Below, piece by piece: positions 32,208 to 58,132 of a stretch of DNA of 64,000 nt. Made by a program: the position numbers and the translations under genes. The stretch's first letter is position 1, and the number at the start of each line of letters is the position of its first letter. A model generated the notes under the pieces. That model was not told where the DNA came from and did not search any database. It worked only from the letters and a program-made list of their open reading frames with translations. Source of the stretch: Pseudomonas cremoricolorata (GTDB lineage Bacteria; Pseudomonadota; Gammaproteobacteria; Pseudomonadales; Pseudomonadaceae); contig NZ_CP009455.1 in NCBI RefSeq assembly GCF_000759535.1, positions 3,472,001-3,536,000 of the forward strand, read 5' to 3'.

Positions 32208-32210
32208 CGT

Positions 32211-33070: not shown

Positions 33071-33260
33071 ATGGGCGAGTGTGCGCAAAACCCACGTAAA
33101 CATACCTGGCGATATCGCCGATACCCAGGCCCACCTCGATCTTCCTCGTAATGTCTGGTCATGCCTTCGGTTGCATGGCCAGCGATCTTCTAACCGTCTT
33201 TTCCAACTCGCTCGCTTGTACAGGTGCAGGGAGAGGGCGCATACCTCAGCACCAAACACG
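33049..33260 (-). pseudogene. C-terminal remnant of a tyrosine recombinase (phage/island integrase)
   Basis: On the reverse strand 33190-33122 translates to KIAGHATEGMTRHYEED, the integrase box II end with the catalytic GH and, nine residues later, the nucleophile Tyr in M-T-R-H-Y. The frame runs on to a stop at 33049. Upstream, LHLYKRASWK (about 33240-33211) continues the family pattern but in another frame, so at least one frameshift is present, and the rest of the gene is missing. Lying next to tRNA-Pro, it marks a former integration at this site. Confidence 0.72.
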
Positions 33261-33551
33261 CAGCTTCGCGGTTGAATCAAGGCGTAAAGGTACGGCGTGC
33301 TGGGTCATCCAGCACCTCCCTGTGGCAAGCATTCTCGCCTGGAAGGGCCTCCGGGGTAGGTAGACCACCACACCGGGCAGTTATTCATCACGGGATCTAA
33401 CGCACTGGTTGGGAGTTTGGGCACTTCCCGCGTTCAAGGGGGAGCGTAGTCCATGTGGAAATTTCCTACACATTCGATTTACATCGCCGCAGCCTCGCCT
33501 TACCATCGACGCCAATGAGAATCATTAACGATATCGGTCAGGCTCGAGGGC
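33261..33551. other. Intergenic region upstream of the siderophore regulator
   Basis: About 290 bases with no gene seen. It carries the promoter of the AraC regulator and the Fur-like site at 33512-33530; the rest may be island-boundary debris. I looked for a second copy of the tRNA-Pro 3' end here and did not find one. Confidence 0.5.
33512..33530 (+). promoter_or_regulatory. Fur box upstream of the pchR-like gene
   Basis: CCAATGAGAATCATTAACG closely matches the Fur consensus GATAATGATAATCATTATC at the core ATGAGAATCATT. It lies about 22 bases upstream of the start of the regulator, so it should repress it when iron is plentiful. Confidence 0.75.
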
Positions 33552-34454
33552 ATGCTTATGGAGCATCGAGAAGCGACGCACACCCAACTGCAAATCACCA
33601 GTAAGGGCCTGCAGCTTCAGCCCGGGCTCATCGTCAACCTGACTTGCGCCAACCCCGACAACACCAGCGTCACGCGGACGTCCTACCAGCACACCAGCGA
33701 GTACATCCACTTCAATTGCCTGTTGCAGGGCAGCTTTCAGGCGAAGGTCAGAAACCACGAGATTTCATTATCAACCGGTGACCTGAACGTGGGGTATGCC
33801 AATGGTGAACACTTCAATGTGGCCCATTGCTCTGACCTGTCCAATATCGAGCTGCTGGTCGACCCCGAATTGTTGTTGTCTCTGGCCGGCGAGGATTGCC
33901 ACCTGGTGACACCGACCACGCTCGGACGCTTTTTCACGCTCAGTTGCCCGGCCAGCAACCGGGCGCGCTTTGCGGCGGCGCAACTGTGCTACCACCTGAG
34001 CAGCCCGCAGTACCCGCAATTGCTCATCCACTCGGCTGCGCTGGACTATCTGTATTGGCATCTGCACGCCTTCAAGGGCGAACCTGACGATGAGCCGGTG
34101 GCACAGTTCGAGCGGCGCCGGTTGCTCGAAGCGCGTGATTTCCTGCTGCAGGATCTCGGTTCGCCGCCCACTATCGCGCAGATCGCGCAGAAGGTCGGGC
34201 TGAATGAGTTCAAGCTCAAACAAGGCTTCAAGAAGCTCTTCAACAACAGCATCTACGCCTACTTTCAGGGTGAGCGGATGAAGAAAGCGCAGGCGCTGCT
34301 GCAACAGCACAACGTCACTGAAACCGCGATGATCCTCGGTTACAGCAACGTCAGTCATTTCAGCAGCGCGTTTCGCAAACAGTTTGGCGTGCTGCCCGGC
34401 AGCTTGCGCCAGGATCCGGACAGCCTGCTGTTCGGTGCGCCGCCCCAGCGTTGA
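33552..34454 (+). CDS. AraC regulator of the siderophore locus (PchR/YbtA-like)
   Basis: 300 residues: N-terminal ligand domain, then the C-terminal DNA-binding part with IAQIAQKVGLNEFKLKQGFK and TAMILGYSNVSHFSSAFRKQFG, the pattern of PchR/YbtA, which bind ferri-siderophore and activate synthesis and uptake genes. A Fur box lies just upstream. Convergent with the methyltransferase gene, 9 bases apart. This is one of two such regulators, the other being at the far end of the locus. Confidence 0.85.
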   Translation: MLMEHREATHTQLQITSKGLQLQPGLIVNLTCANPDNTSVTRTSYQHTSEYIHFNCLLQGSFQAKVRNHEISLSTGDLNVGYANGEHFNVAHCSDLSNIELLVDPELLLSLAGEDCHLVTPTTLGRFFTLSCPASNRARFAAAQLCYHLSSPQYPQLLIHSAALDYLYWHLHAFKGEPDDEPVAQFERRRLLEARDFLLQDLGSPPTIAQIAQKVGLNEFKLKQGFKKLFNNSIYAYFQGERMKKAQALLQQHNVTETAMILGYSNVSHFSSAFRKQFGVLPGSLRQDPDSLLFGAPPQR

Positions 34455-34463
34455 GCGAGTGGC

Positions 34464-35306
34464 TCAGTTGCCGCTGTCGAACGCGCAGTGAATCAACCCC
34501 GGCGCAAAGCGCCTGCGCAGGTAGCCGATATGCGACAGCAGGGCGAACAGGCGCATATAGCGCGGGTAGGGCTGGGCAAAGGTCGGGCAGGACAACAGCC
34601 GCAGCCCTGGCACCTGCTTCACGAATGACGGCACCCGGCCCAGCGGCATGCCAAACGGCATGGGCGGCGCGGTGTAGCCGGTTGACAGCTTCCAGCCTCT
34701 GAGCGTCTTGCGCGAGAACCATGGCGGAATGGTGTCGAAGAACGCTTCGCCGCGTCCGAAACGACGAGTGATCTTTTCCAACAATGCCAGCACCTGCGCT
34801 TCGGTGAAGTACATCAGCAACCCCGCCGCGCTGATGAACACCGGGCCCCTGATCTGTTGCGCGACCTGGTCGAGCCACTGATCGTCCAGTGCCGAGCAGG
34901 CGATCAGGTGGTTGCGTTCGTGAGCGGGGAGCAGACGCTGACGAATGCCGATCGACTCGGCAAGATCAACCGAATACCACTGCACCCGGGGATGAGCGAC
35001 GCGCCAGAACTGGGTCTCCAGGCCTTCGCCCAACACCACCACCGACCCTTCAGGTTCCCGCGCAAGAAAGGCATGGATGCGTTCATCGGCGTAGCGCGAG
35101 CGCACGGCATGCACAGGGGTCGGCGGGCCGAAACGCCCGCGAAAGTCGTAGTCGATGCGCTGCATCAGCGCCATCAGCAGCGGGTCGTTGAGCAGGCTGT
35201 GCGGGCCGTCGGAATAGGCCGAGCGAGTCCAGATGGTCAGCAGCATGGTTTCCGGCACGCCTTGCAAGCCCGGTGAGAGGCGTTCGAGGTCAACCGCAGC
35301 GTTCAT
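34464..35306 (-). CDS. SAM-dependent methyltransferase, LCMT/PPM1-like
   Basis: 280 residues with the leucine-carboxyl-methyltransferase pattern: SVVVLGEGLETQFWR (SAM site), WYSVDLAESIGIRQRLLP, IACSALDDQWLDQV and FISAAGLLMYFTEAQVLALL. Members transfer methyl groups to carboxylates or hydroxyls of peptides and metabolites. Last gene of the reductase/methylase transcript, 33 bases after the dehydrogenase. It may methyl-esterify or O-methylate the siderophore or a shunt product; that is inference. Confidence 0.78.
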   Translation of the reverse strand: MNAAVDLERLSPGLQGVPETMLLTIWTRSAYSDGPHSLLNDPLLMALMQRIDYDFRGRFGPPTPVHAVRSRYADERIHAFLAREPEGSVVVLGEGLETQFWRVAHPRVQWYSVDLAESIGIRQRLLPAHERNHLIACSALDDQWLDQVAQQIRGPVFISAAGLLMYFTEAQVLALLEKITRRFGRGEAFFDTIPPWFSRKTLRGWKLSTGYTAPPMPFGMPLGRVPSFVKQVPGLRLLSCPTFAQPYPRYMRLFALLSHIGYLRRRFAPGLIHCAFDSGN

Positions 35307-35339
35307 GGTGGGTTCCTTGTTGACAAGCCAGATCCAGCC

Positions 35340-37256
35340 TCATAGCGAGGCGGCCAGCGGGGTAGTGGTGAGGCCGGGCAACGCTGCGGCGGCGGGGGCG
35401 GTCAAGCTGACGATGGCACAGCCGTCGGCAGCCGATTGCCAGTCGATTTCCAGCGGTGTCAGGCGCGCCATATACGACAGCGCTTCATGTTCCATTTCCC
35501 GCATCAGGGTGCTCAGCTCAGGGCAGCCCAGAAGCGTGAACATTTCGGCGAAGGTGCAGTGGTCGATGCGATAGCCGTCCTCGGTGCGCTGGCCCTCGAG
35601 CAACCCCAAGGTCTGATAGCGTGCCATGAAGGCCTGCCAGTAGCGGCGCACCGTATCCGACGGATCGTCCGTGGCGGCGATGACTTCAGGTACCGGCCAC
35701 AGCCAGCGCATTTCCATCTTACCCGTGGCCAGGAACATCTCCCGATACAAGGCATAGGCCTGCTGCTGGCCCAGCAGGTCGCGTACGCGGCTGTAACCTG
35801 CGGTGAACATGCTCATATCGCGGGTGATCTTCGCCCATTCGGCGGCGTAGGTCGGGTGACGGCTGCGAAAGCTGGCAAGGCGCCGGTGATGGTCCCGCCA
35901 GCGCCACACAAAGCTGGCCACGAAACCGCCCAGGGCCAGCCCGGGTTTTTTCTCACGCAGGCGTGCCCACACGGCCGAATCGGTGAGGTAAGTGGTCTGC
36001 AAAGCGGGCATGCGCGGATGCATCGCGGCGTCGTACCAGCACTGGCCGAAATGCGCCAACTCATGGCTGCTGCCGCTGACCACCTGGCACCAGCCGAACT
36101 GCAACGGGTCCTTGGCGGTGTCGAGTTCATTGGCCCGGCGTGCGCTGATGCCGTGCTGGCGCAGAATCGTTTCCATCGCCTGATGAGCGCTGGCGGGCAG
36201 TTGTTCCATGCTGTAGACGCCGGCGCCGATCTCGCCCGATTCGGCCAATAACCACTGCACTGCCGCGCAGGCGGTGAGGGCGGTGAAGTCGTAGGAGGAG
36301 ATGCAGCCATGCACCACCCATCCGTCCTCCGGGCGATTGTCGGGGTAGACCCACAGGCAGCAGTCGGGGTCGGCTTTCTTGCGCTTTTTCATCGACTGGC
36401 CGCTGCTGTAGAACATCTTCGCCAGCCGTTCGCGCAAGCCTTTCCAGCGGCTCAAGCGGCCCATCAACCGGGCGCTGCGTGGCGAGAGGAATTGAATGCT
36501 GTAACGGTAATCCAGGGTGTTGATCGTATGGGTCGCTTGGCTGGTGTCACGCTCGCCCAGGGTCGCGATTTCCGGTGCCGAGTAGGCGATCAGGGGCGCA
36601 GGCGCGGCGTGGCCAGGGAAGGTGAACCGACTGTGGGCATCGCCCCAGGGCGCAGGCTGGGTCTGGCGTTTGCCGTCGATGAAGGCCGTCAGCGTTGGCT
36701 TGAAACTGTCCAGCAGCACGTAGGGGCTGGCTTCGCCTCCGCCGTAGGCTGCGCCCGCATAGAACCGGCTGCGGTAGGTGCCGCTGGCGGACGCCTGTTC
36801 GCGGACCAGTTTCATCAACAGGATGCCGGACAGCCCGGGCGTCAGTCCCATGCCGGTCAGCACTCGGCGACCCAGCGCACGTGCGCTGGGGTTCAGAGCC
36901 TGAATGGCGTCGGCGGCGCTCAGGCTGTCGTTGACGTCCACGCAATCGATGCCCGCTTGCAGGCACAGGGCGTGGGGACGCGCCCCATAGGCATCCATCG
37001 GCCCCAGCGCGATGATCGCCAGGTCGAACTGGCGAAGCACCGCCACGGCGCTCTGGCTGTCATCGATGTCCAGCCCCACCCGTGAGACTCCGGCGGGCAG
37101 GGGGGCGCCGCGCTCCGGGCGGCGTGACGCGCAGCTCAGGCGTACGTGCGGGCAGCGCCTGTGCAATGCGCGCAGAATGCGGCGTCCGGTTTCGCCGGTG
37201 CCGCCGATCACGATGACGTTCCTGGAGGGCGGTACGCCGTTGTCCAACGCGTTCAT
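35340..37256 (-). CDS. Saccharopine-dehydrogenase-like protein with extra C-terminal domain
   Basis: 638 residues. Residues about 1-330 form an NAD(P) Rossmann fold (NVIVIGGTGETGRRIL) of the saccharopine dehydrogenase family; MGLTPGLSGILLMKLV is a family hinge. The C-terminal part (about 430-638) resembles the ATC (2-aminothiazoline-carboxylate) hydrolase family by eye: HCTFAEMFTLLGCPELSTLM and a final acidic strand. In a thiazoline siderophore locus this suggests reduction and possibly ring chemistry on the thiazoline. ATG 37256 overlaps the previous stop (ATGA). Function inferred. Confidence 0.68.
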   Translation of the reverse strand: MNALDNGVPPSRNVIVIGGTGETGRRILRALHRRCPHVRLSCASRRPERGAPLPAGVSRVGLDIDDSQSAVAVLRQFDLAIIALGPMDAYGARPHALCLQAGIDCVDVNDSLSAADAIQALNPSARALGRRVLTGMGLTPGLSGILLMKLVREQASASGTYRSRFYAGAAYGGGEASPYVLLDSFKPTLTAFIDGKRQTQPAPWGDAHSRFTFPGHAAPAPLIAYSAPEIATLGERDTSQATHTINTLDYRYSIQFLSPRSARLMGRLSRWKGLRERLAKMFYSSGQSMKKRKKADPDCCLWVYPDNRPEDGWVVHGCISSYDFTALTACAAVQWLLAESGEIGAGVYSMEQLPASAHQAMETILRQHGISARRANELDTAKDPLQFGWCQVVSGSSHELAHFGQCWYDAAMHPRMPALQTTYLTDSAVWARLREKKPGLALGGFVASFVWRWRDHHRRLASFRSRHPTYAAEWAKITRDMSMFTAGYSRVRDLLGQQQAYALYREMFLATGKMEMRWLWPVPEVIAATDDPSDTVRRYWQAFMARYQTLGLLEGQRTEDGYRIDHCTFAEMFTLLGCPELSTLMREMEHEALSYMARLTPLEIDWQSAADGCAIVSLTAPAAAALPGLTTTPLAASL

Positions 37257-38401
37257 GACAAACCTCCTTGCCATTCGGGGTGGGGCTGCGCCGTGAGGCC
37301 GTCGATAGCGAGCAAGCCTTCGGCCCTGAACAGCTGCATGAAGCGGCGACTGTCGATGGCCTCGTGCAGCAGCTGTACGCCGTTGGCCAGCGGATCACCT
37401 TCCAGCAGGCAGCGCGCGGTGATGGCGATTGCAACGCCAGTGGCCTGGTAGGTGTCGGCGATCACCAAGGTGGCGCTTTCGCGCTGTTCATCGGCATAGG
37501 TCACATCGACCCGTAAGCCATACACCGGCTGCAGATTGCGCAAGTCCCGTGCCGATGCTCTGGCCAGACGTTGTGCGGCACGGTGGATCTGCTCGGGGGT
37601 GCGGAATTGGCCGAACAGTTTGGCCCGCAGACACGCCAGCGCCGCCCGCGGACCGACGTTGCTGCCGTAGGCGCGGGCCTCGGGGATCTTCAGCCGCCCG
37701 GCCAGGCGCGCCAGTTCTTCGCTGGGCATCAGCATTGTGCTGACGCGGCCAATCTGCCCGGGAAAGTTCACCTTGCGCATGGCCCTGAAAAAGCCCACCG
37801 ACTGATGTGCGCCGTGACGGATGATCGGAAAACCACGGTCCTGGCCAAAGTCGCCGAGGCTGTGGACGATGTCCCACGCCGAGTTGTAGGTCCAGGCATC
37901 GCGGCCAATGCAGCAGGTATCAAGGCGCAGCGGAGTACGTCCGTGGGCCGTGGAATCGATCACGTACTTGGGAAACAGCCCGGTCAGGCCGGGCATCAGG
38001 CCGACGCTGATGATCAACGGCACATTGACCGGCTCCTGGCGCTGGCGTGCTTCCAGGGCCTTGAGCAACGGGTCGTAGCCCCCGGCGTCAATCAAGGGCG
38101 TGTCCATCTCGATACAGGCGCGCGCGACCCGTTCACCGAGCACCCCGGAAGGTCCGATGCAGGCGATCACCAAGGCCGCCTCGGCAAACGCCTGCCTCAT
38201 CGCCTGATGATCGTTGGCGTCCAGCACCAGGTTGGCCAGGCGCGGCTCGTTCGGTGTCGTAACGGATGCCGAGTGCGCGCTGCGCGAGGCAATGATGATT
38301 TCGTGGTAGGTGTGCCGCAGCAGGTACCTTACGACTTCGCGTCCGACCCGCCCGTTGCCGCCCATGACGATGATGGGGCGGTTGTTTGTTTGATTGTGCA
38401 T
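37253..38401 (-). CDS. Saccharopine-dehydrogenase-like NAD(P) oxidoreductase
   Basis: 382 residues with a Rossmann start (PIIVMGGNGRVGREVVRYLL) and SVGLMPGLTGLFPKYV, the same hinge as its neighbour, so the two are paralogues. The usual thiazolinyl imine reductase (PchG/Irp3) is absent, so this pair are the best candidates for ring reduction. First gene of the tailoring transcript, with a Fur-like site upstream. ATG 38401 chosen; the longer frame runs into that site. Confidence 0.75.
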   Translation of the reverse strand: MHNQTNNRPIIVMGGNGRVGREVVRYLLRHTYHEIIIASRSAHSASVTTPNEPRLANLVLDANDHQAMRQAFAEAALVIACIGPSGVLGERVARACIEMDTPLIDAGGYDPLLKALEARQRQEPVNVPLIISVGLMPGLTGLFPKYVIDSTAHGRTPLRLDTCCIGRDAWTYNSAWDIVHSLGDFGQDRGFPIIRHGAHQSVGFFRAMRKVNFPGQIGRVSTMLMPSEELARLAGRLKIPEARAYGSNVGPRAALACLRAKLFGQFRTPEQIHRAAQRLARASARDLRNLQPVYGLRVDVTYADEQRESATLVIADTYQATGVAIAITARCLLEGDPLANGVQLLHEAIDSRRFMQLFRAEGLLAIDGLTAQPHPEWQGGLS

Positions 38402-38435
38402 GCTGCTATCCCGACAAGAGGGGAGAGTGCTCGAT

Positions 38436-38454
38436 TCAATGGGAATCGTTCTCA
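38436..38454 (-). promoter_or_regulatory. Fur-box-like site upstream of the dehydrogenase genes
   Basis: TCAATGGGAATCGTTCTCA has the AATGxGAATCxTT core of Fur sites, 35-53 bases upstream of ATG 38401. It suggests that the tailoring genes have their own iron-controlled promoter in addition to the NRPS transcript. Confidence 0.6.
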
Positions 38455-38529
38455 AGAAATCCGACTATGGAATCGCCAGCCAGCGCCGACCACCCGATCC
38501 GGGAGTGGCCCCCCCGGATCCGGAGCTTT

Positions 38530-39519
38530 TCAGCCCCGTGGCAGTTGTTCCAGTGCCGCCCTGACCACGTCCAGCACGCCGTCCTGCTGTTGCATGAGGT
38601 AGAAATGCCCGCCGGGAAAGCCGCGATGAACGAACCCCGCCGTGGTTTCATCGGCCCACGCCAGCGCATCGTCCAGGTCCAGCTCGTGGAACTGGTCGCC
38701 GGTCAAGGCGGTGATCGGTACGGACACGGGCGAGCGTTGCGGGTCCGGCACGTACGTCTCGATGGCCTGGTAATCGCTGCGGGTCGCTGGTAGCACCAGT
38801 TCCATCAGTTCCGGCGAGTGCGCCATGGCGTTTTGCGTGCCGCCCAGGCGCAACATTTCGTCCATCAAGCGCTGGTCGCTCGCCAGGTGAAACGCCTCGG
38901 CCTTGCGCCGGCTGGGCGCTTCGCAGGCAGACAGCAACAGGTGCCGCGCCAGCGGCAAGCCGCGCTGTTGCAAGGCGCGATGCAGTTCATACGCCAGCGC
39001 CGAACCCATGCTGTGGCCGAACAACAGGTACGGTTGCTGCAACAGGTGAGGCGTCCGCTGCAGGGCATCGGCAATGGCCGCCACCAGCAGCGTCAGGTCA
39101 CTGATCAGAGGGGCGTCGATGCGTTCTTCACGGCCCGGGTATTGCACCGCGATCAGCTCGACATGGGCGGGCAAGGCCGCACCCCAGTGGCGAAAGAAAC
39201 TGGCCGCACCCCCGGCATGGGGCAGACAGATCACCCGCTGCGTGGCGTGTGGGCGTGGCTGCCAGGTCTTGAACCAGTCCGCCGCGATGCCGCCCTGGGG
39301 CGTGTCCGCAGGCCCAGGCGCGGTGCCTGCCAGGCACGCCAGCACCTGCTGCCGGTTGCGTTTGAGCTGCTCGCGCAACGCATCGGTCAGCGCGCCTTGC
39401 GGCGCACGAAAGCGCAATTGACCGTTTTGATTCCACAGGTCCACGCCCAGGCTGCGGGCGTTGGCGAGTATCGCGGCGATGCTGTCGTCGGCCGGAACGG
39501 ATGGGGTGGCAGTGTTCAC
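38530..39519 (-). CDS. Type II thioesterase with N-terminal TubC-like docking domain
   Basis: 329 residues. Residues about 10-65 (AAILANARSLGVDLWNQNGQ, then LRFRAPQGALTDALREQLKR) match the TubC_N docking-domain pattern used between NRPS/PKS proteins. The rest is an alpha/beta hydrolase thioesterase with GHSMG nucleophile motif and a C-terminal catalytic His region (HRGFPGGHFYLMQQ). Such stand-alone enzymes hydrolyse mis-loaded carriers or release product; the NRPS lacks its own TE, so release is plausible. Overlaps the NRPS stop by 4 bases (ATGA). Confidence 0.8.
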   Translation of the reverse strand: MNTATPSVPADDSIAAILANARSLGVDLWNQNGQLRFRAPQGALTDALREQLKRNRQQVLACLAGTAPGPADTPQGGIAADWFKTWQPRPHATQRVICLPHAGGAASFFRHWGAALPAHVELIAVQYPGREERIDAPLISDLTLLVAAIADALQRTPHLLQQPYLLFGHSMGSALAYELHRALQQRGLPLARHLLLSACEAPSRRKAEAFHLASDQRLMDEMLRLGGTQNAMAHSPELMELVLPATRSDYQAIETYVPDPQRSPVSVPITALTGDQFHELDLDDALAWADETTAGFVHRGFPGGHFYLMQQQDGVLDVVRAALEQLPRG

Positions 39520-49322: not shown

Positions 49323-49389
49323 GTGCTCGGTCCCTCGATGGTGCGAAAGTCAATGAATGCAGCGATCAATACAACAGCGTGCGGGCCCA

Positions 49390-52300
49390 TCACTGCAGCG
49401 CCGAGGTCAACGTCCGCGCACTGCGCGCAGGCGCATCGGCAGGCGCCTCGACGGCCACCAGACAACGGGAAATGCTGGCGAATTTCTCGATGGTTTCCTG
49501 CAACTCGCGCGCAGGCGTGGACGGCGCGACGATGCCGGCCCCGGCTTGCAGCCAGGTCTGGTCGCTCTGCCGGAACAGCGAGCGCAGCACCAGCGCGGCA
49601 TCCAGCGAGCCGTCGCAATCGACCATCATCATGCTGCCGCTGTAAGGGCCGCGCGGCTGGTCTTCCAGGCGTTGTATGGCCTCGATGGCCGGTTGTTTCG
49701 GGATACCCGATGCGGTCACCGCCGGGAACAGCGCCGCGAAGGCGTGCCAGGCGTTGGCGCTGGCGCGCAACTGGCCCTTGACCCGCGACGCCAGGTGCTG
49801 CACCGGACCGCGTTCGCTGACCGTCATGAACTCGCAGACTTGCACCGAATTGGCCTCGCAGATGGCCTGCAGTTCTTCGACGGCAAGCTTCACCGACACC
49901 GCGTGTTCAGCGATTTCCTTGACGTCGCGCAGCAGATCGCGGCGCAGGTCCAGGGTCTGCTCGAAGGTCTCGCCCATCGCCCGGGTGCCGGCCAGGGGTT
50001 GGGTGCTGACCTGGCCAGTGGCGCTGACCTCGACCACGGTTTCCGGGCTGAAGCCGACGATCTGCAAGGTGCTGCGGTTGAGCACGAAGGAGCGCGCCGG
50101 CGTGTTCTGGCTGCGGCCCAGGCGGTAGCTCGCCAGCAGATCGACGTCACCGGGCACCGGCACCTTGCGTGACAAGATGACTTTGTCATAACGCCCGGCG
50201 TGAATCTCGTCCACGGCGCGTGCCACTTGGGCCTGATACTGCGCCGCGCCGTGGCTTTCGATCGCAGGCACCAGCAAAGCGCGGCCTGCCAATGCCGGGA
50301 GATTGCCCGGCACACTCAGCAGGCGGTCAAGCGCGGCGACTTCTTCGCAGAGCGCGGCGAGGGTCTGAGGATCGAGTGCGCGCACCAGCGCCTGGTTGGC
50401 GCAAAAGCGCACTTCCCGTTGTGGCACCACCAGTTCCAGCAGGGTCTCTTGGCTGGCGGGGTTGTCGACGCCGTGAATCACGCTGGCCATTTCGAAGCGG
50501 GCGGCACCGTAGGCGCGCCAGCCTTGCAGCGAGAGGGTGCCCAATGCCTGGGCGATCATCTGACAGGGATCGTCCGCGTGCAGTGTCAACTCTTGCTCGC
50601 CGTGGTGCAGGGTGACGCGGTTGCCGCTGGCCAGCAGGCTCGCCTTGCGTCCGAGCGCCACGTGCCAGACACCCTCGCGCTCGTAGAGCGTGGCGTCATC
50701 TTGCAGGTGGCGGCGCAGCAACTCACTGGCCAGCTCCATGGGGTTGGCGGTCAGTGGCAGTGCCTGTTCGATGAAGGTGTCCAGTGGCGCGCGGGTTTCG
50801 ACCGGGCGTGGTTCCAGGCTGCGGGCCAGGCGGCGCTTGTCGACCTTGCCGATGGGCGTGAGTGGCCAGTGATCAACGAATTCGATCTGGTCCGGGCATT
50901 TGAACCCTGCCAGGCCCCTGGCCATGAGCAATGCCCGCACCTGCGCAAGGTCCGGTCGTTGACCGTCGGTGATCAGAAACGCACAACTGCGCTCACCGAG
51001 GCGCTCGTCCGGCAGGCCCACCAGTGCGGCGCTGACGATAGAGGGGTGGAAACACAGCGCCTGCTCGACCTCTTCGGTCGCGATCTTTTCGCCCGCACGG
51101 TTGACCTGTTCCTTGATGCGCCCTTCGACCACCAGGTTGCCGTCGGCGGTCCAGCGCGCCAGATCGCCGGAGCGGTAGTAACCGTCCGGGGTGAACGACC
51201 GAGCGTTTTGCGCCGGAGCACGGTAGTAACCGCGCAGGGTGTAAGGGCCGCGCGTCAGCAGCTCACCTGTTTCACCAGGCGCGACGTCGAGACCGTCCTC
51301 GTTCACCAGCCGTACTTGGTCATCGGCGCACAGCGGCCGACCCTGACTGTGCAGGACTTGCTCCAGCGGATCGTCCAGCCGGGTGTAGCAGAGCAGACCT
51401 TCGGCCATGCCAAACACCTGTTGCAGGCCACAGCCCAGGCCTGGCGTGACTTTGCTGGCCAGCAACGACTCGCAGCGGGCGCCGCCGACTTGCAGGTATT
51501 TCAGGCTGCCGAGATCGGCGTCGTCCCATTCCCGCGCTTCCAGCCAGACCTGCACCAGCGGTGGCACCAGCGAGGTGAGGGTGACGCCTTCGCGCTCGAT
51601 CAGCGCAAAGCACTCATCAGGCCCGGGTGTGTGCGCCAACACCGCTGTGCCGCCGCTGGACAATGTGCCCAGCACGCCGGGGCATGCCAGCGGAAAATTA
51701 TGCGCGACGGGCAGAGCCGCGAGGTACACGCTGTGTTCGTCGAGGCCACACAGTGCGGCCGAGGCGCGAGCGTTGTAGGCGTAGTCGGCGTGGGTCCGCG
51801 GAATGAGTTTCGGCGTGCCGGTGGTGCCACCTGACAGCAACAGCAATGCCGGATCGCGGTGGTGCGGCTCGGGCAGCGCCGGCGGTTGCCCGGCCCACTG
51901 GCTACCGCTGTGCGCGATCTTGGTCAGGGTCGGTCCAGCGGCCTCATCGCTGTCGAGGATCACCTGCTTGATGCAGGGCCGTTCGGCAGCGACCTCCCGT
52001 GCCAGGGCTGCGTAGTCGAACCCCATGAAGCGCTCTTTACAGATATAGGCCACCGGCTCGGCCAGATCGCACAGCGCACCGATGTCGCTGCGGCGTTGCG
52101 CAGGCATGGCCAGAATCGGCAGCGCGCCCAGACGCAGCAGGCCGAACAGCGTGGTGACGAAGGCGATGCCATTGGGCAGTTGCAACAACACCCGGTCACC
52201 TTTTTGGATGCCTTGGCGGGCGAACCCCCACGCCAGGTGATCGGCCTGCCGGTCGAGCTGCGCGTAGCTCAGGCGGGTGTCCTGTTCAACCAGCGCCACC

Positions 52301-52425
52301 GCTTCGCCCCGAGCCTGCGCCCACTGCCGCAGGCATTGCCCCAAGGTGAAGGGCTGCCAGTGGCCCCGGCGCTCGAACTCATCGCACTGGGCATCGGGCC
52401 AGAAAGTGAAGTCGGTGTTCGTCAT
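49390..52425 (-). CDS. Fusion: salicyl-AMP ligase + salicylate synthase
   Basis: 1011 residues. Residues about 1-545 are an aryl-AMP ligase of the EntE/DhbE/YbtE family: LLLLSGGTTGTPKLIPRTHA, HNFPLACPGVLG with Cys248 where 2,3-dihydroxybenzoate enzymes have Ser, and GMAEGLLCYTRLDDP with Leu where DHB enzymes have Val. These replacements mark salicylate specificity. Residues about 555-1011 match Irp9/YbtS/MbtI salicylate synthases (WRAYGAARFEMA, YDKVILSRKV, GFSPETVV, PLAGTRAMG, FPAVTASGIPK). So one protein should turn chorismate to salicylate and load it on the ArCP. First gene of the operon, with GGAGAG RBS and a Fur site upstream. Confidence 0.92.
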   Translation of the reverse strand: MTNTDFTFWPDAQCDEFERRGHWQPFTLGQCLRQWAQARGEAVALVEQDTRLSYAQLDRQADHLAWGFARQGIQKGDRVLLQLPNGIAFVTTLFGLLRLGALPILAMPAQRRSDIGALCDLAEPVAYICKERFMGFDYAALAREVAAERPCIKQVILDSDEAAGPTLTKIAHSGSQWAGQPPALPEPHHRDPALLLLSGGTTGTPKLIPRTHADYAYNARASAALCGLDEHSVYLAALPVAHNFPLACPGVLGTLSSGGTAVLAHTPGPDECFALIEREGVTLTSLVPPLVQVWLEAREWDDADLGSLKYLQVGGARCESLLASKVTPGLGCGLQQVFGMAEGLLCYTRLDDPLEQVLHSQGRPLCADDQVRLVNEDGLDVAPGETGELLTRGPYTLRGYYRAPAQNARSFTPDGYYRSGDLARWTADGNLVVEGRIKEQVNRAGEKIATEEVEQALCFHPSIVSAALVGLPDERLGERSCAFLITDGQRPDLAQVRALLMARGLAGFKCPDQIEFVDHWPLTPIGKVDKRRLARSLEPRPVETRAPLDTFIEQALPLTANPMELASELLRRHLQDDATLYEREGVWHVALGRKASLLASGNRVTLHHGEQELTLHADDPCQMIAQALGTLSLQGWRAYGAARFEMASVIHGVDNPASQETLLELVVPQREVRFCANQALVRALDPQTLAALCEEVAALDRLLSVPGNLPALAGRALLVPAIESHGAAQYQAQVARAVDEIHAGRYDKVILSRKVPVPGDVDLLASYRLGRSQNTPARSFVLNRSTLQIVGFSPETVVEVSATGQVSTQPLAGTRAMGETFEQTLDLRRDLLRDVKEIAEHAVSVKLAVEELQAICEANSVQVCEFMTVSERGPVQHLASRVKGQLRASANAWHAFAALFPAVTASGIPKQPAIEAIQRLEDQPRGPYSGSMMMVDCDGSLDAALVLRSLFRQSDQTWLQAGAGIVAPSTPARELQETIEKFASISRCLVAVEAPADAPARSARTLTSALQ

Positions 52426-52538
52426 CGCTGCTCTCCAGAAGAACCGCACCCGGCACGAGGCCCGGCTGCGTGAGTGACGGTGCCGATTCACGGCGCAAAT
52501 ACACAGGCCCTTGCGCTGTTCGGCACGCAAAAACAAAC

Positions 52539-52557
52539 AATAATGATTCGCATATCA
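52539..52557 (-). promoter_or_regulatory. Fur-box-like site upstream of the biosynthetic operon
   Basis: AATAATGATTCGCATATCA resembles the Fur consensus with the ATAATGATT half and a weaker second half. It lies about 115 bases upstream of ATG 52425 and should place the ligase-NRPS-TE transcript under iron control. Confidence 0.65.
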
Positions 52558-52763
52558 GGCCAATACCCAAAACCGGTTTTGCGTAACCCGATCCGGATTT
52601 TTTAGAACCATTGGCTTGGTGGTCATAACCAAACAACTGCGCAGCTACAGCGGGAGCGTGCTTGCCGCTGCAGCTGATCTGGAGTTTGCTTTTGCGACGA
52701 CGCTTGCAGGTGCCGCATTTCATGTCTGGCGACGCGAATCCGGCACGGACAGCAGACAAAACC

Positions 52764-52792
52764 AAGCCCCGGACCCTTGCAGTCCGGGGCTT
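52764..52792 (-). terminator. Intrinsic terminator after the SnoaL-like gene
   Basis: An 11-bp GC-rich stem (52764-52774 with 52782-52792) read leftward and followed by a T-rich stretch (TTGGTTTTG). It ends the uptake operon before the biosynthetic promoter. Confidence 0.8.
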
Positions 52793-52800
52793 CAGATCAC

Positions 52801-53184
52801 TCAGTTGATCGCAAAGCCTGCCTTCAACAGCGGCGTCGGGTCATAGAAAAAACGTTCGAACACCACCTGATTGCCTTTCCAGGATTGCAGGGCCAGCTCT
52901 TCGATCCGTACCCGCTCGCCGTTCTTCAGCGTCCATTCGGCGTGCCATTCGATAACCACCAGGTTGCCGTCGATCAGCACGCTGGGTGCGCTGATTTCAT
53001 GGACGGCGCTGGTCCACTCGGCAGCTTCTGTGTTGCGCGCAAGGCTCGCGGCACGGCCGATACGCGGTGGCTGGTTGTTCTCCTGAATAACCACGTCTTC
53101 AGCGTAGAACGCCAGCAAGGCGGCTTCGGATCGGCCCTCGACGGTGTAGCGAATCAGTTGCTCGATGATGTCCTTATCAGGCAT
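52801..53184 (-). CDS. SnoaL/NTF2-like protein in the siderophore uptake operon
   Basis: 127 residues, an alpha+beta barrel pattern of the SnoaL/nuclear-transport-factor-2 fold (MPDKDIIEQLIRYTVEGRSE, VIEWHAEWTLKNGERVRIEE). Such folds are enzymes (cyclases, isomerases, hydrolases) or ligand carriers. Overlaps the permease gene by 8 bases, so it is co-translated. It may modify or release the imported ferri-siderophore; no catalytic residues are certain. Confidence 0.75.
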   Translation of the reverse strand: MPDKDIIEQLIRYTVEGRSEAALLAFYAEDVVIQENNQPPRIGRAASLARNTEAAEWTSAVHEISAPSVLIDGNLVVIEWHAEWTLKNGERVRIEELALQSWKGNQVVFERFFYDPTPLLKAGFAIN

Positions 53185-54466
53185 TTCGTACCTCCAGTGC
53201 GGTGTTGGCGGATGGGTGAGTGCCCTCGCGCAGCGGCATGCGTTGCAGGGCGATGCCGATCACGATCATCAGCACCAGGCCCAGCCCTGCGGTGCAGATG
53301 AACAGGCTGGCATAACCCAGCCAACCGGCCAGCATGCCGGCCAGCATGCCAGCGCCGATGTTGAACACCTGCTCGGTGCATTGCAGCACGGTGAAGTCAG
53401 TGCCGGCCTGTTCAGTGGACGCCCAGCGCATGAACAGTGTGAAGAACGCCACGTAGGCGACGCCTGCGGCCACCGAGTTGATCAGCTCGACCACCAGCGC
53501 CAGGTTGAAGTCCAGTTTCAGCCCCGTGGCGGGCAACAGCCACAGCAGGATCGAGCAGGCCGACAGCAGACCGGCGATCCAGGCCACCCGGCGTACGCCG
53601 AAACGCTCGATCAACAGGCTGCCGAAGGGCGCGCTGAACAGGGCGATGCACAGCGTGCCCGCACCGTTGATGGTGCCGATCTCGCTCATCGACAGGCCGC
53701 CGTCGACCATCAGTGGGCCGATCATGCTGCCTTTCATGGTGGTGGCGAAGAAGAACGTTGCCGCCACCAGAATCGCCCAACCGGCACCCGGCCTTGCGAG
53801 CATGCGCCAGAGGCTGGCGTGTCGTGCGCCGCTGCCTTCAGGCCCCACGGCGCGAGGCTGTCGGGGCGCGTCCGGGCCGCCGATCACCGGCGCCGTGCAC
53901 AACAAGACCAGCGCGCCCAGAATGACGAAGGTCAGGGCTTGCCCACCGTGTTCGTACAGGGTCACGGTCAAGGCGCCGCCGAGCATCATGCCCACCGAGA
54001 ACCCGCCGATCTGCAGGGCGTTGGCCCAGCCCAGTGCGCGGCCTTGCAGCAGCTCGATGGCCAAGCCATCGGTGGCGATGTCCTGTGTTGCACTGAGCGT
54101 GTTGGCCAGAAACAGCAGCGCCAGCATCCAGGCCCCGACGCCGCCGCTTTGCGGCAACAGCGCGATGACCAAGAAGATCGCCGCAAGGCCCACCTGCATG
54201 GGCACGATCCAGCTGCGTCGGGGGCCAAGCCGCCCGCCGTCGAAGCGGTCGACCCACGGCGCCCAGAGGAACTTCACCGCCCACGGCAGCACCAGCAGAC
54301 CGAGCATGCCGATCATTTGCAGTGAAACGCCCTGAGCCCGCAGGATGACCGGCAGTGCTACGAAGCCCAGGCCGATGGGCAAGCCCTGCGAGACGTACAG
54401 CGCACCGAGCATGATCAACGTGCGTCGGGTCCGCTGGCGCGGCGAATGTTGTGTCGTGTCTTTCAT
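53177..54466 (-). CDS. RhtX/FptX-type inner-membrane siderophore permease (MFS)
   Basis: 429 residues, about 12 helices, with ALYVSQGLPIGLGFVALPVIL, VKFLWAPWVDRF and LSATQDIATDGLA, as in FptX and RhtX, which import ferri-pyochelin or rhizobactin as single-protein permeases. Overlaps the receptor stop by one base (TGATG). With no ABC transporter in the locus this is the probable inner-membrane step. Confidence 0.88.
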   Translation of the reverse strand: MKDTTQHSPRQRTRRTLIMLGALYVSQGLPIGLGFVALPVILRAQGVSLQMIGMLGLLVLPWAVKFLWAPWVDRFDGGRLGPRRSWIVPMQVGLAAIFLVIALLPQSGGVGAWMLALLFLANTLSATQDIATDGLAIELLQGRALGWANALQIGGFSVGMMLGGALTVTLYEHGGQALTFVILGALVLLCTAPVIGGPDAPRQPRAVGPEGSGARHASLWRMLARPGAGWAILVAATFFFATTMKGSMIGPLMVDGGLSMSEIGTINGAGTLCIALFSAPFGSLLIERFGVRRVAWIAGLLSACSILLWLLPATGLKLDFNLALVVELINSVAAGVAYVAFFTLFMRWASTEQAGTDFTVLQCTEQVFNIGAGMLAGMLAGWLGYASLFICTAGLGLVLMIVIGIALQRMPLREGTHPSANTALEVRNA

Positions 54467-56550
54467 CAGAGCTTCCAGTCCACAGCGACGCCCACGGTTC
54501 GCGGCTCGCCAGCGGTTGTGTAGTCAAAGCCCCAGTTGTCCAGGGCGGCGAAGGTGCGGTAGTCCTTGTCGAACAGGTTGTTGACGAACACGCTGACGCC
54601 CACACCGTCCTTGCTCAGGCCCGCGCGCACGTTGGTCAGGCCGTAGGCGTTCTGTTGGAGCTCGTTCTGGATGTCGAAATACTGCTTGCCGGTGTACTGG
54701 TATTCGGCGCGAACCTGCGCACGTACCGGCAGGCTCTGCAGCGGCCAGCTGTACTGCGCGGCAACTCCTGCGCTGATGTCGGGGGTGTAGACCAGGCGGT
54801 TGCCGGACTGGCTGACACCCTTGGCGTCGGTCAGGTCGTCGTACTTGCCGTGGGTGGCGGCAAAGAAACCAGAGAACTCCAGACCTTCAGTGGGCGCCCA
54901 GCGCGACTCCAGCTCCAGCCCTTGGCTATGGGCTTTACCGGCATTGTCGGTGACCACCTGGCCAGGTCCGGCGACGGACTTGATCTGCAGGTCGCGCCAG
55001 TCGATGTAGAACAGGGCAGCGTTGAACATCAGCGTGTTGTCGAGCCACTGCGACTTGAAGCCGGTTTCGTAGCTCCACAGGTATTCAGGGTCGTACTCGC
55101 GCACGTTGGAGGTCAGCCGGTCGAAGCCACCGGAGCGCGCGCCGCGAGTGGCGGAGGCATACACCTGGCGGTCCTCATCCAGGTGGTAGGCGAGGGCGAG
55201 CTTGGGCGTGGTCATGGTCGCCGAGCCGCTGCCGGAGAATGGGTTGTTGTTCTCCATCTTGTACTTGTCATGGGACACGCGCGCGCCCAGGGTCAGGTCC
55301 AGCTGGTCGGTCAGGCTCAGGGTGGTTTCGCCGTAGGCCGCGGTGCTTTTGGTCTGGTACTTGCTGGTGCTGGTGAACGGGCCGCCGTACATGGCCACAT
55401 CCATCAGGTAGTCGTAGGTCAGGTCTTTCTTTTCCCAATACACACCGGCCAGCCAGGTCAGGTGACCTCTTTCGCCGCCTTGCAGACGCACGTCCTGGGA
55501 AAACTGCCGACCCCACTCCTTGGAGTCGGCCTTGCCGCCACCGGTCTGGGCCACCATCGGGCTGTAGCTCAAATCCTGATGCCCGGTGATGTCGTAGTCG
55601 CGCCAGGCGCTGATGGTGCGCAGTTGCGCCCAGCCCAGGTCGTAATTCAGGGTGGCGCTGGCGGCATGGGCGTCGCGCACTTCGTCGTTCTTCGGCTGGA
55701 TGTCAACCTTGCGCTTTTTGTAGTCATCGAACGGCAGGTAGGCATAGCCGCCCTGATTGACTCGCTCGGCGGAGGCTGCCAAGTCCAGCGACCAGTCATC
55801 GCCCGGACGGATGCGCAGGCGCCCGCTGCCCGACCAGGCGTCCAGGTCGTCGATGCCATGACCGTTATCGGCGTAGTCGGTGAAACCGTCGTTCTGCGCA
55901 TGATCGAAGAACACCTGGCCGAAGACTGTGTCCTCGACCAAGGGGGCGCTGGCGGCAACGCTGGCCTCGCGCTGACCGTGGTTGCCGACGCTGCCGTGCA
56001 GGTTGGCCTCGGGCTCGTGACCCGGCTCGCGGCTGGTCAGCTCGATCACCCCGGCGTTGGTGTTGGGTCCGTACAGCGTGCCTTGGGGGCCGCGCAGCAC
56101 GTGCACCGACTCCAGGTCACCGAGGCGGCGGGTGTATTCGGCGTTGGTCAGCGGCACGCCGTCCAGGTACACGCCCAAGGTGCTGTTGAAGTAGTCCTCA
56201 CGCACGGTGCTGCCGATGCCGCGCACTGAAGTCATGGAAAAGCGTTGCGAGCCTTGATGGGTCAGCACCAGGTTCGGCGTGCGTCCGGCGATGTCGGTCA
56301 GGGTCGTCAAACCGGCATCGTCGATGTCTTTGCGCGATACCACCGAAATCGACGACGGCGCCGCCTGAGCCTTCTCGGCTTGCTCGCGACCCAGTTGCTG
56401 GCTGGCGTTCAGGCGCGTGGGGTCAAGCTCTACCACCTGAGGCGCGGTGTCTTGCTGCGTGGCATTGGACGCGGCGATGGCGTCCAGTGCCGTTACCAGT
56501 GGCAGCACCGCGAATACCCACGATGCACCGCGCGAAATTGGAACACCCAT
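54466..56550 (-). CDS. TonB-dependent ferri-siderophore receptor (FyuA/FptA-like)
   Basis: 694 residues. A signal sequence (SWVFAVLPLVTALDAIA), TonB-box region (APQVVELDPTRL), plug domain (ISVVSRKDIDDAGLTTLTDI, GVYLDGVPLTNAEYTRR, VLRGPQGTLYGPNTNAG) and a beta barrel ending VGVAVDWKL with a terminal aromatic-rich strand. No N-terminal signalling extension, so control is by the AraC regulators rather than sigma/anti-sigma. First gene of the uptake operon. Confidence 0.92.
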   Translation of the reverse strand: MGVPISRGASWVFAVLPLVTALDAIAASNATQQDTAPQVVELDPTRLNASQQLGREQAEKAQAAPSSISVVSRKDIDDAGLTTLTDIAGRTPNLVLTHQGSQRFSMTSVRGIGSTVREDYFNSTLGVYLDGVPLTNAEYTRRLGDLESVHVLRGPQGTLYGPNTNAGVIELTSREPGHEPEANLHGSVGNHGQREASVAASAPLVEDTVFGQVFFDHAQNDGFTDYADNGHGIDDLDAWSGSGRLRIRPGDDWSLDLAASAERVNQGGYAYLPFDDYKKRKVDIQPKNDEVRDAHAASATLNYDLGWAQLRTISAWRDYDITGHQDLSYSPMVAQTGGGKADSKEWGRQFSQDVRLQGGERGHLTWLAGVYWEKKDLTYDYLMDVAMYGGPFTSTSKYQTKSTAAYGETTLSLTDQLDLTLGARVSHDKYKMENNNPFSGSGSATMTTPKLALAYHLDEDRQVYASATRGARSGGFDRLTSNVREYDPEYLWSYETGFKSQWLDNTLMFNAALFYIDWRDLQIKSVAGPGQVVTDNAGKAHSQGLELESRWAPTEGLEFSGFFAATHGKYDDLTDAKGVSQSGNRLVYTPDISAGVAAQYSWPLQSLPVRAQVRAEYQYTGKQYFDIQNELQQNAYGLTNVRAGLSKDGVGVSVFVNNLFDKDYRTFAALDNWGFDYTTAGEPRTVGVAVDWKL

Positions 56551-56596
56551 GCCGCCTTTCCCCTTTCAGATCTGAAGTGCGGCGATGGTGGCAGGC

Positions 56597-57562
56597 TCAG
56601 CATGGGGCTTCAAATGAGAATCTTTCGCAATCTGCTGTTTGTTTTTCGCGATCCGCCAGTGGTTGGCACCGCGACGGTTTGGCCCGCGCCACGTCGCGGG
56701 GCGAGCAGGCGTATTTGCGTTTGAACAGGGTCGAGAAATAGGCCGGGCTGTAGCCTATGCGGTACGCGGCCTGGGAACTGCTCAAACGCCCGGATTGCAG
56801 GTCTTGGTAGGCCTGGGCCAGGCGCAGATCCTGCAGGCATTCGGTGACCGACTGGCCGAACTGGCGGCGAAAACCTGCGGTCAGCCGACTGCTGCACATG
56901 CCCACCTGACGGGCCAGTTCTTCGAGCCCTGGCGGTTTGTCCAGATGGTTCTGCAAGAGCTCGTAAGCCTGTTGCAGACGCTCGACCTCCGGACGTGGCA
57001 GGGCGTTGTGTTGCCGCTGTTCGCGGCCCTTTTCGCTCAGGCTGTCGATCACCGTGGCCAAAAGCTCAAGGGATTTACCCTGCATGTACAGCGTGCGGGC
57101 GACCCCTTGAAACGGGCAGGAGACGATCTGTTCCAGCATGGCCATCAGCCGGTAATCAGGCACCCAGTCATGCACCACGGCCAGTGACGCGTGATGTATG
57201 TCTGCCTCAAGCGCGTGCAGTAATTGCGTGGGAAACTGCAGAAACACCGCCTGTACGCGGCTGTTACGGGTGACCTGATGCCGCGCCTGCCAAGGCTGTA
57301 GCGCGTGGACGACGAAACTGCGCGCGCCGCTGCAATCGATCACTTGATGCTGGCCGAGGCTGAAACTGATGCCACTGCCCACCAGAAACCCGGCACAGAT
57401 ACCGGCGCAGGTTTCGCTGCTCCAATGCGCTTCGACATGGGTTTCGATCAGGCCTATCGGCAGCTTCAGACCATTGGCGCTTTCGACCTGTTCATAGCGC
57501 AGGCTGCCACCGCCTTGCAGTGGCTGGATCCGAAGAGCAGGGGCAGAGGCAGGGCGGTCCAT
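56597..57562 (-). CDS. AraC regulator (PchR/YbtA family), second copy
   Basis: 321 residues with a ligand domain and C-terminal helix-turn-helix motifs (LEELARQVGMCSSRLTAGFR; AAYRIGYSPAYFSTLFKRKY). ATG 57562 has GAGG upstream (ATACCGAGGTTTCC-like spacing); an in-frame start 51 bases further up is less likely. The Fur box at 57626-57644 lies upstream. Together with the regulator at 33552 it brackets the locus. Confidence 0.88.
   Translation of the reverse strand: MDRPASAPALRIQPLQGGGSLRYEQVESANGLKLPIGLIETHVEAHWSSETCAGICAGFLVGSGISFSLGQHQVIDCSGARSFVVHALQPWQARHQVTRNSRVQAVFLQFPTQLLHALEADIHHASLAVVHDWVPDYRLMAMLEQIVSCPFQGVARTLYMQGKSLELLATVIDSLSEKGREQRQHNALPRPEVERLQQAYELLQNHLDKPPGLEELARQVGMCSSRLTAGFRRQFGQSVTECLQDLRLAQAYQDLQSGRLSSSQAAYRIGYSPAYFSTLFKRKYACSPRDVARAKPSRCQPLADREKQTADCERFSFEAPC
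56609..56627 (-). promoter_or_regulatory. Fur-box-like site upstream of the TonB receptor
   Basis: TCAAATGAGAATCTTTCGC has the AAATGAGAATC core. It lies inside the 3' end of the AraC gene, about 60 bases upstream of the receptor start on the same strand, so the receptor promoter overlaps that coding end. Confidence 0.6.
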
Positions 57563-57874
57563 GGAAACCTCGGTAGATATCAGAAGGCCACGGTAGGAAA
57601 AATCAAGTCGCAATGCAACTTGTTATCAAATGAAAATCATTTCTGTTATGCGGCGCGGAAGCGGGGGGTGAGGTGAGCAGCGTTTGGGGAGTGTTCAGTA
57701 CACCAGGGGCGATTCACTGCAGGGCAAGGACTGCGTCTACAGACGAACAGGTTAATTGAAGCGGGTTGAATGCCATTGCTTTCACAGGTGTCCCGATTCC
57801 TTGCAAGCCCATTCCAACAACACGCTAGACGTCAGGCAGTCGATCGGAACCAGGACACTTCACACGCTGCGCTA
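57563..57874. other. Intergenic region beyond the siderophore locus
   Basis: Holds the AraC promoter with its Fur box; about 230 bases beyond that show no gene, repeat or tRNA fragment by eye. This may be the right edge of the island, but no attachment repeat was found. Confidence 0.5.
57626..57644 (-). promoter_or_regulatory. Fur box upstream of the second AraC regulator
   Basis: TCAAATGAAAATCATTTCT is a near-dyad matching the Fur core ATGAAAATCATT, about 65-80 bases upstream of ATG 57562. Confidence 0.75.
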
Positions 57875-58132
57875 CTACCCGCGAATCCGCTGCAGGCGAG
57901 CGCGTCCGGCATCGGTGATGGCGGTTTCTCCGTCGTCGCTGATGCGGTAGCGACCTGAAGGCAGTTTGCTGATGGAGAACCTGACCAGCCCGCTCCTGGA
58001 CAGGGCTTCTCCCACTTCGAAACTCATGGCCTGTTCCAGATCGAACAGTTTGATCTCGCCGATCTTGAAGCGGGTGAACGCTATCAGTGCCGAGTCCAGC
58101 GCGGCTTGATCGACTTCGTGAACCTGTTGCAT
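57875..58132 (-). CDS. Small hypothetical protein (85 aa)
   Basis: Starts MQQVHEVDQAALDSALIAFT with a strong AGGAGG ribosome site 5 bases before the ATG. It has alternating helix/strand patterns and an RYRISDDGETAITDAGR C-terminus reminiscent of a winged-helix fold, but I do not recognise the family. It sits between the siderophore regulator and the phage-derived region. Confidence 0.6.
   Translation of the reverse strand: MQQVHEVDQAALDSALIAFTRFKIGEIKLFDLEQAMSFEVGEALSRSGLVRFSISKLPSGRYRISDDGETAITDAGRARLQRIRG

Follow-up and report, generated by a model that had tools for sequence, protein, structure and literature searches.

A Pseudomonas locus for a predicted salicylate-capped, three-cysteine siderophore, with the docking domain on its thioesterase and without the reductive partner of its relatives

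How does a siderophore assembly line end when its synthetase carries no release domain, and what would such a line make? This question is raised by a locus in a 64,000-nucleotide stretch of Pseudomonas cremoricolorata DNA, referred to here as the window; it covers positions 3472001-3536000 of a genome that consists of one contig of 4,780,403 bases. The locus encodes a fused salicylate ligase and synthase, one large nonribosomal peptide synthetase (NRPS), a thioesterase bearing a TubC_N docking domain, two saccharopine-type dehydrogenases (named DH400 and DH644), a methyltransferase and uptake proteins. Its gene organization and kinship are those of an ulbactin-type locus from which the second, reductive NRPS is missing. 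From these observations a docking, a hydrolysis, reduced rings, a methyl position, a direction of change and a product can be proposed: the locus probably specifies a shortened, re-docked and iron-regulated ulbactin-type line that releases a salicyl-(cysteine)3 chain as the free acid.

The genes of the locus appear intact, and each named part is backed by Pfam or NCBIfam matches. The fusion protein, likely starting at the ATG at 52425 and not at the TTG at 52536, matched DHB_AMP_lig at 638.2 bits (below the equivalog cut-off of 723.55) and the salicyl_syn model TIGR03494 at 464.5 bits (cut-off 325.15). In the 3268 aa of the NRPS, Pfam detected three Condensation, three AMP-binding and four PP-binding domains, an aryl carrier protein followed by three modules of cyclization, adenylation and peptidyl carrier domains, ArCP-(Cy-A-PCP)x3; no methyltransferase (MT), polyketide synthase (PKS) or thioesterase (TE) family was found in it at E<=0.001. 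The pocket motifs are the same in all three A domains. Read by eye from these motifs, the code is DLYNMSMIWK in the window and DLYNLSLIWK in P. matsuisoli and Halomonas, which we take to be a cysteine code under an assumed numbering. An earlier note on this DNA had described such a fusion and such an NRPS, with identical pockets and without PKS or MT insertion, and the searches agree on each of these points. The same holds for the docking thioesterase, the two Sacchrp_dh_NADP proteins, the LCM-type methyltransferase and the receptor, permease and SnoaL-like protein that it listed, and its two regulators, called PchR-type in the note, are of the AraC type (Table 1).

Could the locus be a strict variant of the pyochelin or yersiniabactin system, distinguished by an unusual third module for cysteine? 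Pyochelin contains two cysteines, yersiniabactin involves a PKS, and both systems have reductases of the PchG/Irp3 type and epimerase (E) or MT insertions. In the Protein Data Bank (PDB), the middle module is matched best by PchE; the Cy domains find counterparts in Irp2/HMWP2 and PchE, and the permease resembles RhtX/FptX. The A domains, however, hold no methyltransferase-like insertion and the last module no MT; the PchE/PchF architecture with embedded E, MT and TE was not found in the NRPS by Pfam, nor was any PKS family, and hence a yersiniabactin-type PKS module, among the locus proteins. A whole-genome search with TIGR01761 returned no PchG/Irp3 match at E<=0.1 (the same model matched in 7 of 14 control genomes), a fused salicylate synthase lies at the locus, and full-length DH644 was found in just two of the 398 genus genomes sampled. 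Membership in either system is refuted by the missing defining domains, as the earlier note had maintained, and a strict variant is highly improbable. Its statement that a PchG/Irp3 reductase is lacking stands for that protein, for which the genome gave no match at E<=0.1; it does not follow that the locus has no thiazoline reductase.

A scan of a contig collection yielded 24 related loci, in 23 of which DH400 lies beside DH644, the remaining one being a contig of 4.2 kb. Judged by gene content, these relatives, from Pseudoalteromonas, Vibrionaceae, Burkholderia, Oceanospirillum and Gilliamella, are the ulbactin-type family, which agrees with the expectation of the earlier note that the product might stand nearer to the ulbactins, with different tailoring. 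A reductase (R) domain is present in 12 of the 24, nine directly and three in extended sequence (L047, L049 and L050 for L017, L013 and L018), and also in three further records, P. piscicida (L056), a Vibrio lentus plasmid (L057) and genome G1406. By Pfam, each of six second NRPS proteins (L046, L047, L048, L049, L050, L056) reads TubC_N-Condensation-AMP-binding-PP-binding-NAD_binding_4, with no methyltransferase family in any of them. The fourth A domain of the reductive clusters lacks the cysteine code that marks the other three. The first NRPS of these clusters has the same domain order as that of the window (Pfam in L047, BLAST in L046-L050; the ArCP of L049 was located in the overlapping locus L013). 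Its tail ends with EEG and two further residues in all 12 sequences read from both groups, and the TubC_N core is alike in both.

The second group is small. In the window, P. cremoricolorata, P. matsuisoli and Halomonas, TubC_N and the thioesterase form one protein (by Pfam, except in P. cremoricolorata, where tblastn and one open frame indicate it). Three of the 24 loci (L009, L010, L011) show this arrangement, and all four docked loci, the window included, contain the LCM methyltransferase, which was not seen in other loci within the stretches examined. The window genome has a single TubC_N match, on the thioesterase. P. cremoricolorata, P. matsuisoli and Halomonas also gave one match each, and the frames that contain it measure 338, 431 and 325 aa. 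In B. guangdongensis and Oceanospirillum the one match lies instead in the second NRPS, with frames of 1636 and 1585 aa. Searches with TubC_N and PF07993 found no second NRPS of the type TubC_N-Cy-A-PCP-R at the locus or in the genome; the four PF07993 matches lie on open frames of 315-363 aa and not on any NRPS. A partner encoded elsewhere in the genome was rejected because no other TubC_N was found. Since the only TubC_N found is on the thioesterase, the tail of the NRPS would be able to meet nothing but the TubC_N-thioesterase.

Genus, phylum, class and order samples were searched at E<=1e-40, with the 3-5 best first-look candidates scored per genome; in the class-wide sample a full-length TubC_N-thioesterase occurred in one of 369 genomes, the window's own, and three other matches covered the protein only from residue 78 or 79 onward, past TubC_N. 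In the open-access literature, judged by titles and the starts of abstracts, no description was found of a TubC_N-thioesterase that replaces an NRPS-R subunit.

The phylogenies suggest how the two arrangements are related. In the thioesterase tree, docked and free catalytic domains group together to the exclusion of three other thioesterases from the class (support 100/99). The joined dehydrogenases give a tree in which the docked loci form a clade (100/100), nested in a larger one that leaves out the reductive Gilliamella loci; the reductive form is thus likely ancestral. A more far-reaching scenario, at somewhat better than even odds, is a natural transplant of a docking domain, in which TubC_N moved from the terminal NRPS-reductase to the editing thioesterase of the cluster itself and made this proofreader the releasing enzyme. 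A polycyclic siderophore derived from an aldehyde would thereby have given way to a new open-chain salicyl-(cysteine)3 acid, with the LCM methyltransferase recruited to complete it.

A different explanation is that the thioesterase is a docked proofreader, and that release comes about in another way, such as spontaneous hydrolysis, lactam or thiolactone formation, or the action of an enzyme encoded elsewhere. Its catalytic domain is indeed kin to the free thioesterases of related clusters and shares their GHSMG motif. Against this stand the lack of any other release domain at the locus, where the NRPS has neither TE nor R, and the lack of PF07993 on any NRPS in the genome. The TubC_N fusion has also been kept in both Pseudomonas and Halomonas, despite a difference of about 40% between the dehydrogenases of their loci, and its gene is under purifying selection, with a ratio of nonsynonymous to synonymous substitution rates (dN/dS) of 0.11. 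A docked proofreader is therefore regarded as unlikely, and release by the docked thioesterase is preferred.

Several observations nevertheless weigh against release by a re-docked thioesterase derived from a reductive line. As kin of apparent editing (type II) enzymes, the thioesterase might only proofread. The docked clade is supported at only 78/79 in the thioesterase tree, and the dehydrogenase tree is midpoint-rooted, with long branches meeting at the root, so that it favours reductive ancestry and does not prove it. Nine of the 24 loci (L012, L019, L021, L022 and L028-L032) can be assigned to neither arrangement, and one of these, L019, shows a fourth Cy and A without R. The reductive P. 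luteoviolacea genome G152 has six TubC_N matches, one of them in the second NRPS; one TubC_N per genome is thus not a family rule. Finally, the ulbactin reductases considered next are equated with homologs of DH400 and DH644 from organism, number and family.

The dehydrogenases bear on the oxidation state of the rings. Their structure models have predicted local distance difference test (pLDDT) scores of 88.2 for DH644 and 88.4 for DH400; the best PDB folds are lysine and carboxyspermidine dehydrogenases for DH644, and saccharopine, carboxyspermidine and lysine dehydrogenases for DH400. According to the available text of one report, P. flavipulchra S16 produces ulbactins, and two thiazolinyl imine reductases, described there as novel and identified through knock-out and complementation, act in their biosynthesis (PMC12819058). 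A P. flavipulchra protein, P0143, is a DH644 homolog, 42% identical to the window protein and 98% to that of the reductive P. piscicida cluster. Because homologous pairs lie in the Pseudoalteromonas cluster and ulbactin reductases are reported from P. flavipulchra, DH400 and DH644 are most probably thiazolinyl imine reductases and the counterparts of those enzymes. Proteins of similar annotation occur in other siderophore systems, as described in the accessible parts of the respective papers: PchK of enantio-pyochelin, annotated as saccharopine dehydrogenase (PMC3377617), MchE of mupirochelin (PMC10080011), EqbM of equibactin (PMC3672683), and SrbE, whose saccharopine dehydrogenase domain protein is essential for sorangibactin and has an unknown function (PMC10127202).

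DH644 also has a helical C-terminal domain, weakly similar to ATC hydrolase (PF14196, 21.3 bits, below the cut-off of 28.1). This domain, encoded at 35340-36200 of the window, contains residues invariant across 27 aligned rows, including cysteine 573. It could be supposed that the pair does not reduce rings, and that the hydrolase-like end of DH644 opens or rearranges a thiazoline, leaving the rings unreduced. The PF14196 signal and the PF14196 annotation of a relative, P0139, fit this supposition, as does SrbE with its essential but unexplained role. The two reductases of the ulbactin producer, a species with a DH644 homolog, speak against it, together with the annotation of PchK and the folds named above. 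Unreduced rings on this account appear rather improbable, and thiazolinyl imine reductases remain the preferred assignment.

Taken together, the parts suggest the following pathway. The fusion protein would make salicylate, activate it and load it on the ArCP, and the three Cy-A-PCP modules would incorporate three cysteines and close them to rings. Acting in trans, DH400 and DH644 may convert up to two thiazolines to thiazolidines. In the relatives, the NRPS tail would face the TubC_N-Cy-A-PCP-R protein, which presumably extends the chain by a fourth unit before releasing it reductively, and the resulting aldehyde would close the ulbactin-type ring on two thiazolidine nitrogens. Ulbactin itself has a tricyclic N,S ring system. 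There is no R in the window; the product should therefore lack the aldehyde-derived ring. Here a formerly free, editing-type thioesterase would take the terminal position and hydrolyse the three-cysteine chain to the carboxylic acid, the LCM methyltransferase may add a methyl group, perhaps on a thiazolidine nitrogen or the carboxylate, and the ferric complex would re-enter through the receptor and the permease of the major facilitator superfamily (MFS).

The building blocks proposed in the earlier note, salicylate and three cysteines, are those that assembly-line logic gives, and their condensation with loss of six waters corresponds to C16H15N3O3S3. The predicted [M+H]+ values are 394.0348 without reduction, 396.0505 with one reduction, 398.0661 with two, and 412.0818 with two and an added CH2; two reductions and a methyl group would give C17H21N3O3S3. 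Values of 410.0661 and 426.0974 were also calculated, and each [M-2H+Fe]+ ion would lie 52.91 above the corresponding [M+H]+.

Homologous proteins were searched in a database of 5.8 billion, in which only the candidates sharing most words were scored (7996-7998 for each query). DH644 is rare, with 28 proteins at E<=0.001 among 7996 candidates scored. At E<=1e-40 it was found in two of 398 genus genomes, in full length, one being the window's own; in one of 398 phylum genomes, again the window's own; and in two of 300 genomes from the order of Burkholderia guangdongensis, one being B. guangdongensis itself. Of 144 relative genomes, 39 match at E<=0.001; the match is full-length in the window's own genome alone, and in the others covers the N-terminal dehydrogenase part. 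By contrast, 1235 proteins with the salicylate fusion scored E<=0.001 among 7998 candidates. This common fusion is no distinguishing mark of the locus, and was rejected as a novelty.

Plasmid p1 of Vibrio lentus LMG 21034 (L057; 251 kb), typed as conjugative, carries a reductive ulbactin-type cluster with its own ATP-binding cassette (ABC) importer and phosphopantetheinyl transferase, and is a plain route for horizontal spread of the cluster. Some P. aeruginosa strains have a DH400 homolog (P0161, 50%, 67 members) and a salicylate fusion (P0062, 53%, 97 members), possibly marking a related siderophore locus; no P. aeruginosa DH644 is named among the homologs listed.

Within one NRPS, the A domains are 82-89% alike in the window, 80-85% in P. 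matsuisoli, 97-98% in Halomonas and 80-83% in B. guangdongensis, and least alike in P. luteoviolacea (63-72%); across genera the values are 54-72%. The higher likeness within one NRPS points to concerted evolution, whether through gene conversion or through repeated duplication. In Cy2 and Cy3 of the window, N replaces the first aspartate of the Cy motif. This was rejected as a sign of dead domains, being ordinary in the family: P. luteoviolacea, SMS1, Photobacterium and Oceanospirillum have the same N in their third Cy, Vibrio lentus has it in two Cy domains, and it recurs in P. matsuisoli and Halomonas, while B. guangdongensis has D in both corresponding domains. Nor is Pro for Thr in Cy1 an anomaly, as PchE-Cy1 likewise has Pro (HMWP2-Cy1 has Thr). 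For the methyltransferase, a search of solved structures gave no match at E<=1.

Table 1. Features of the siderophore locus, in window coordinates
Feature	Positions	Strand	Evidence or remark
Fur-like site	33511..33529		5' of first AraC regulator (R1); 15/19 against the Fur consensus
AraC-type regulator R1	33552..34454	+	HTH_18 77 bits
LCM-type SAM (S-adenosylmethionine) methyltransferase	34464..35306	-	PF04072 46.6 bits; proposed to act in trans
DH644, saccharopine-type dehydrogenase	35340..37274	-	PF03435 29.6 bits; start probably 37256
DH400, saccharopine-type dehydrogenase	37253..38401	-	PF03435 52 bits; listed open reading frame begins 38455
Weak Fur-like site, thioesterase-DH400 gap	38435..38453		12/19
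TubC_N-thioesterase, PF00975 type, GHSMG serine motif	38530..39519	-	TubC_N 55.6 bits, Thioesterase 171.2 bits (Pfam)
NRPS, 3268 aa, ArCP-(Cy-A-PCP)x3, C-terminal tail ending EEGIL	39516..49322	-	Pfam, pocket motifs
Salicylate-AMP ligase / salicylate synthase fusion	49390..52425	-	NCBIfam
Very weak Fur-like site 5' of fusion gene	52539..52557		11/19
SnoaL-like protein, last in receptor-permease-SnoaL operon	52801..53184	-	PF12680 33.5 bits
MFS permease, RhtX/FptX kind	53177..54466	-	TIGR02718 272 bits, below cut-off 356.15
TonB-dependent siderophore receptor	54466..56550	-	TIGR01783 235.2 bits, cut-off 223.5
AraC-type regulator R2	56597..57613	-	HTH_18 56.3 bits
Weak Fur-like site 5' of receptor gene	56610..56628		12/19
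Weak Fur-like site 5' of R2	57626..57644		12/19

The minus-strand biosynthetic genes overlap or are closely spaced (thioesterase-NRPS -4, DH644-DH400 -4, NRPS-ligase 67, thioesterase-DH400 128). Of the Fur-like sites mentioned in the earlier note, the one at 33511 is strong and the only strong one, no site of at least 14 having appeared in 30 Markov shuffles; the other four are weak. The window contains 20 sites of at least 12/19, compared with 5.1 expected, and the weak sites are therefore suggestive only. The sites were scored against an assumed Fur consensus. Homologs of R1 (40-47%) lie near the dehydrogenase pair in most related loci, according to tblastn.

The locus is flanked by thrS-like, infC, pheS and pheT genes and by tRNA-Pro(GGG) at 32948-33024. 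P. cremoricolorata DSM 17059 is colinear with the window over 25407-46457 (93.6% DNA identity) and 47341-59328 (94.3%), the tRNA included, and its cluster proteins share 92-97% identity with those of the window. Ten genes compared with P. cremoricolorata gave dN/dS values of 0.08-0.21, the NRPS being left out because the reference contig breaks inside its gene. This purifying selection gives no sign of decay, and decay of the cluster was rejected. The idea that an integrase-borne island flanked by direct repeats sits at tRNA-Pro was also rejected, as the last 13-40 bases of the tRNA have no second copy in the window. The tRNA nevertheless appears to be an island hotspot: a second copy of its 3' end, 50-54 bases long, lies about 25-71 kb downstream in 4 of 12 same-genus relatives, and in four relatives compared, homology to the window ends at or just past it. 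The guanine-plus-cytosine (G+C) content is 63-67% in the biosynthetic genes (34000-52000), 55-58% in the left stretches 24000-30000 and 32000-34000, and 61-66% in the rest of the window, so that the G+C content of the locus is no strong sign of foreign origin. Further large NRPS genes occur in the genome at 4355202-4364066 and 636861-679548; one frame of 4369 aa may, by its size, encode a PvdL-type pyoverdine protein.

The exchange of release enzymes through docking tags is an aim of assembly-line engineers. Evolution seems to have made such an exchange here, and both versions are extant and have the upstream NRPS and its tail in common. The predicted masses can be searched for in a Pseudomonas type strain.

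Among known systems, pyochelin, enantio-pyochelin and yersiniabactin share with the window the salicyl cap, the Cy domains and the thiazolidines predicted for it, and PchK is likened to the window dehydrogenases by annotation only (PMC3377617, in the part available). As described in the available sections of two papers (PMC10080011, PMC10127202), mupirochelin, coelibactin and sorangibactin have in common with the window an aryl cap, heterocycles and a saccharopine-dehydrogenase-type protein (MchE, SrbE). In these three the first ring is an oxazoline or an oxazole, and they use a cytochrome P450 and a TE on the NRPS, neither of which is at the window locus (no P450 domain was found in the locus proteins scanned). 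In sorangibactin and coelibactin the TE has an active-site cysteine, whereas the window thioesterase is a separate protein with GHSMG; mupirochelin and sorangibactin also have a VOC/glyoxalase protein, and the window locus has none. Equibactin of Streptococcus equi, as far as the accessible text of its description goes (PMC3672683), is predicted to contain three cysteines and has EqbM; unlike the window, its line serves three PCPs with one A domain, includes epimerase, MT and TE domains along with a YbtU-type reductase, and is without a salicylate synthase gene. The 'Pyochelin-like 1 and 2' systems of Pseudomonas are likewise predicted to give aryl-Cys-Cys-Cys in the portion available of PMC8719888; three-cysteine siderophores of Pseudomonas are thus not new as an idea. 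Their last module, C-A-MT-T-TE, is on a separate protein, whereas the window has one NRPS protein without MT, and the thioesterase apart.

The closest likeness is to the ulbactin-type clusters of P. piscicida/P. flavipulchra, P. luteoviolacea and their kin. They share the ArCP-(Cy-A-PCP)x3 NRPS, the DH400-DH644 pair, the EEG tail, the PF00975 thioesterase, often an R1-type regulator, and the salicylate synthase and ligase, which are fused in most of them and separate in Photobacterium. For import, the window has an MFS permease, whereas an ABC importer is annotated in Vibrio lentus. The second NRPS, TubC_N-Cy-A-PCP-R, is theirs and is absent here; the locus is therefore filed as a derived variant and not as an ulbactin cluster. 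In gene content it is set apart by that absence and by the position of TubC_N on the thioesterase, to which the extra LCM methyltransferase is added.

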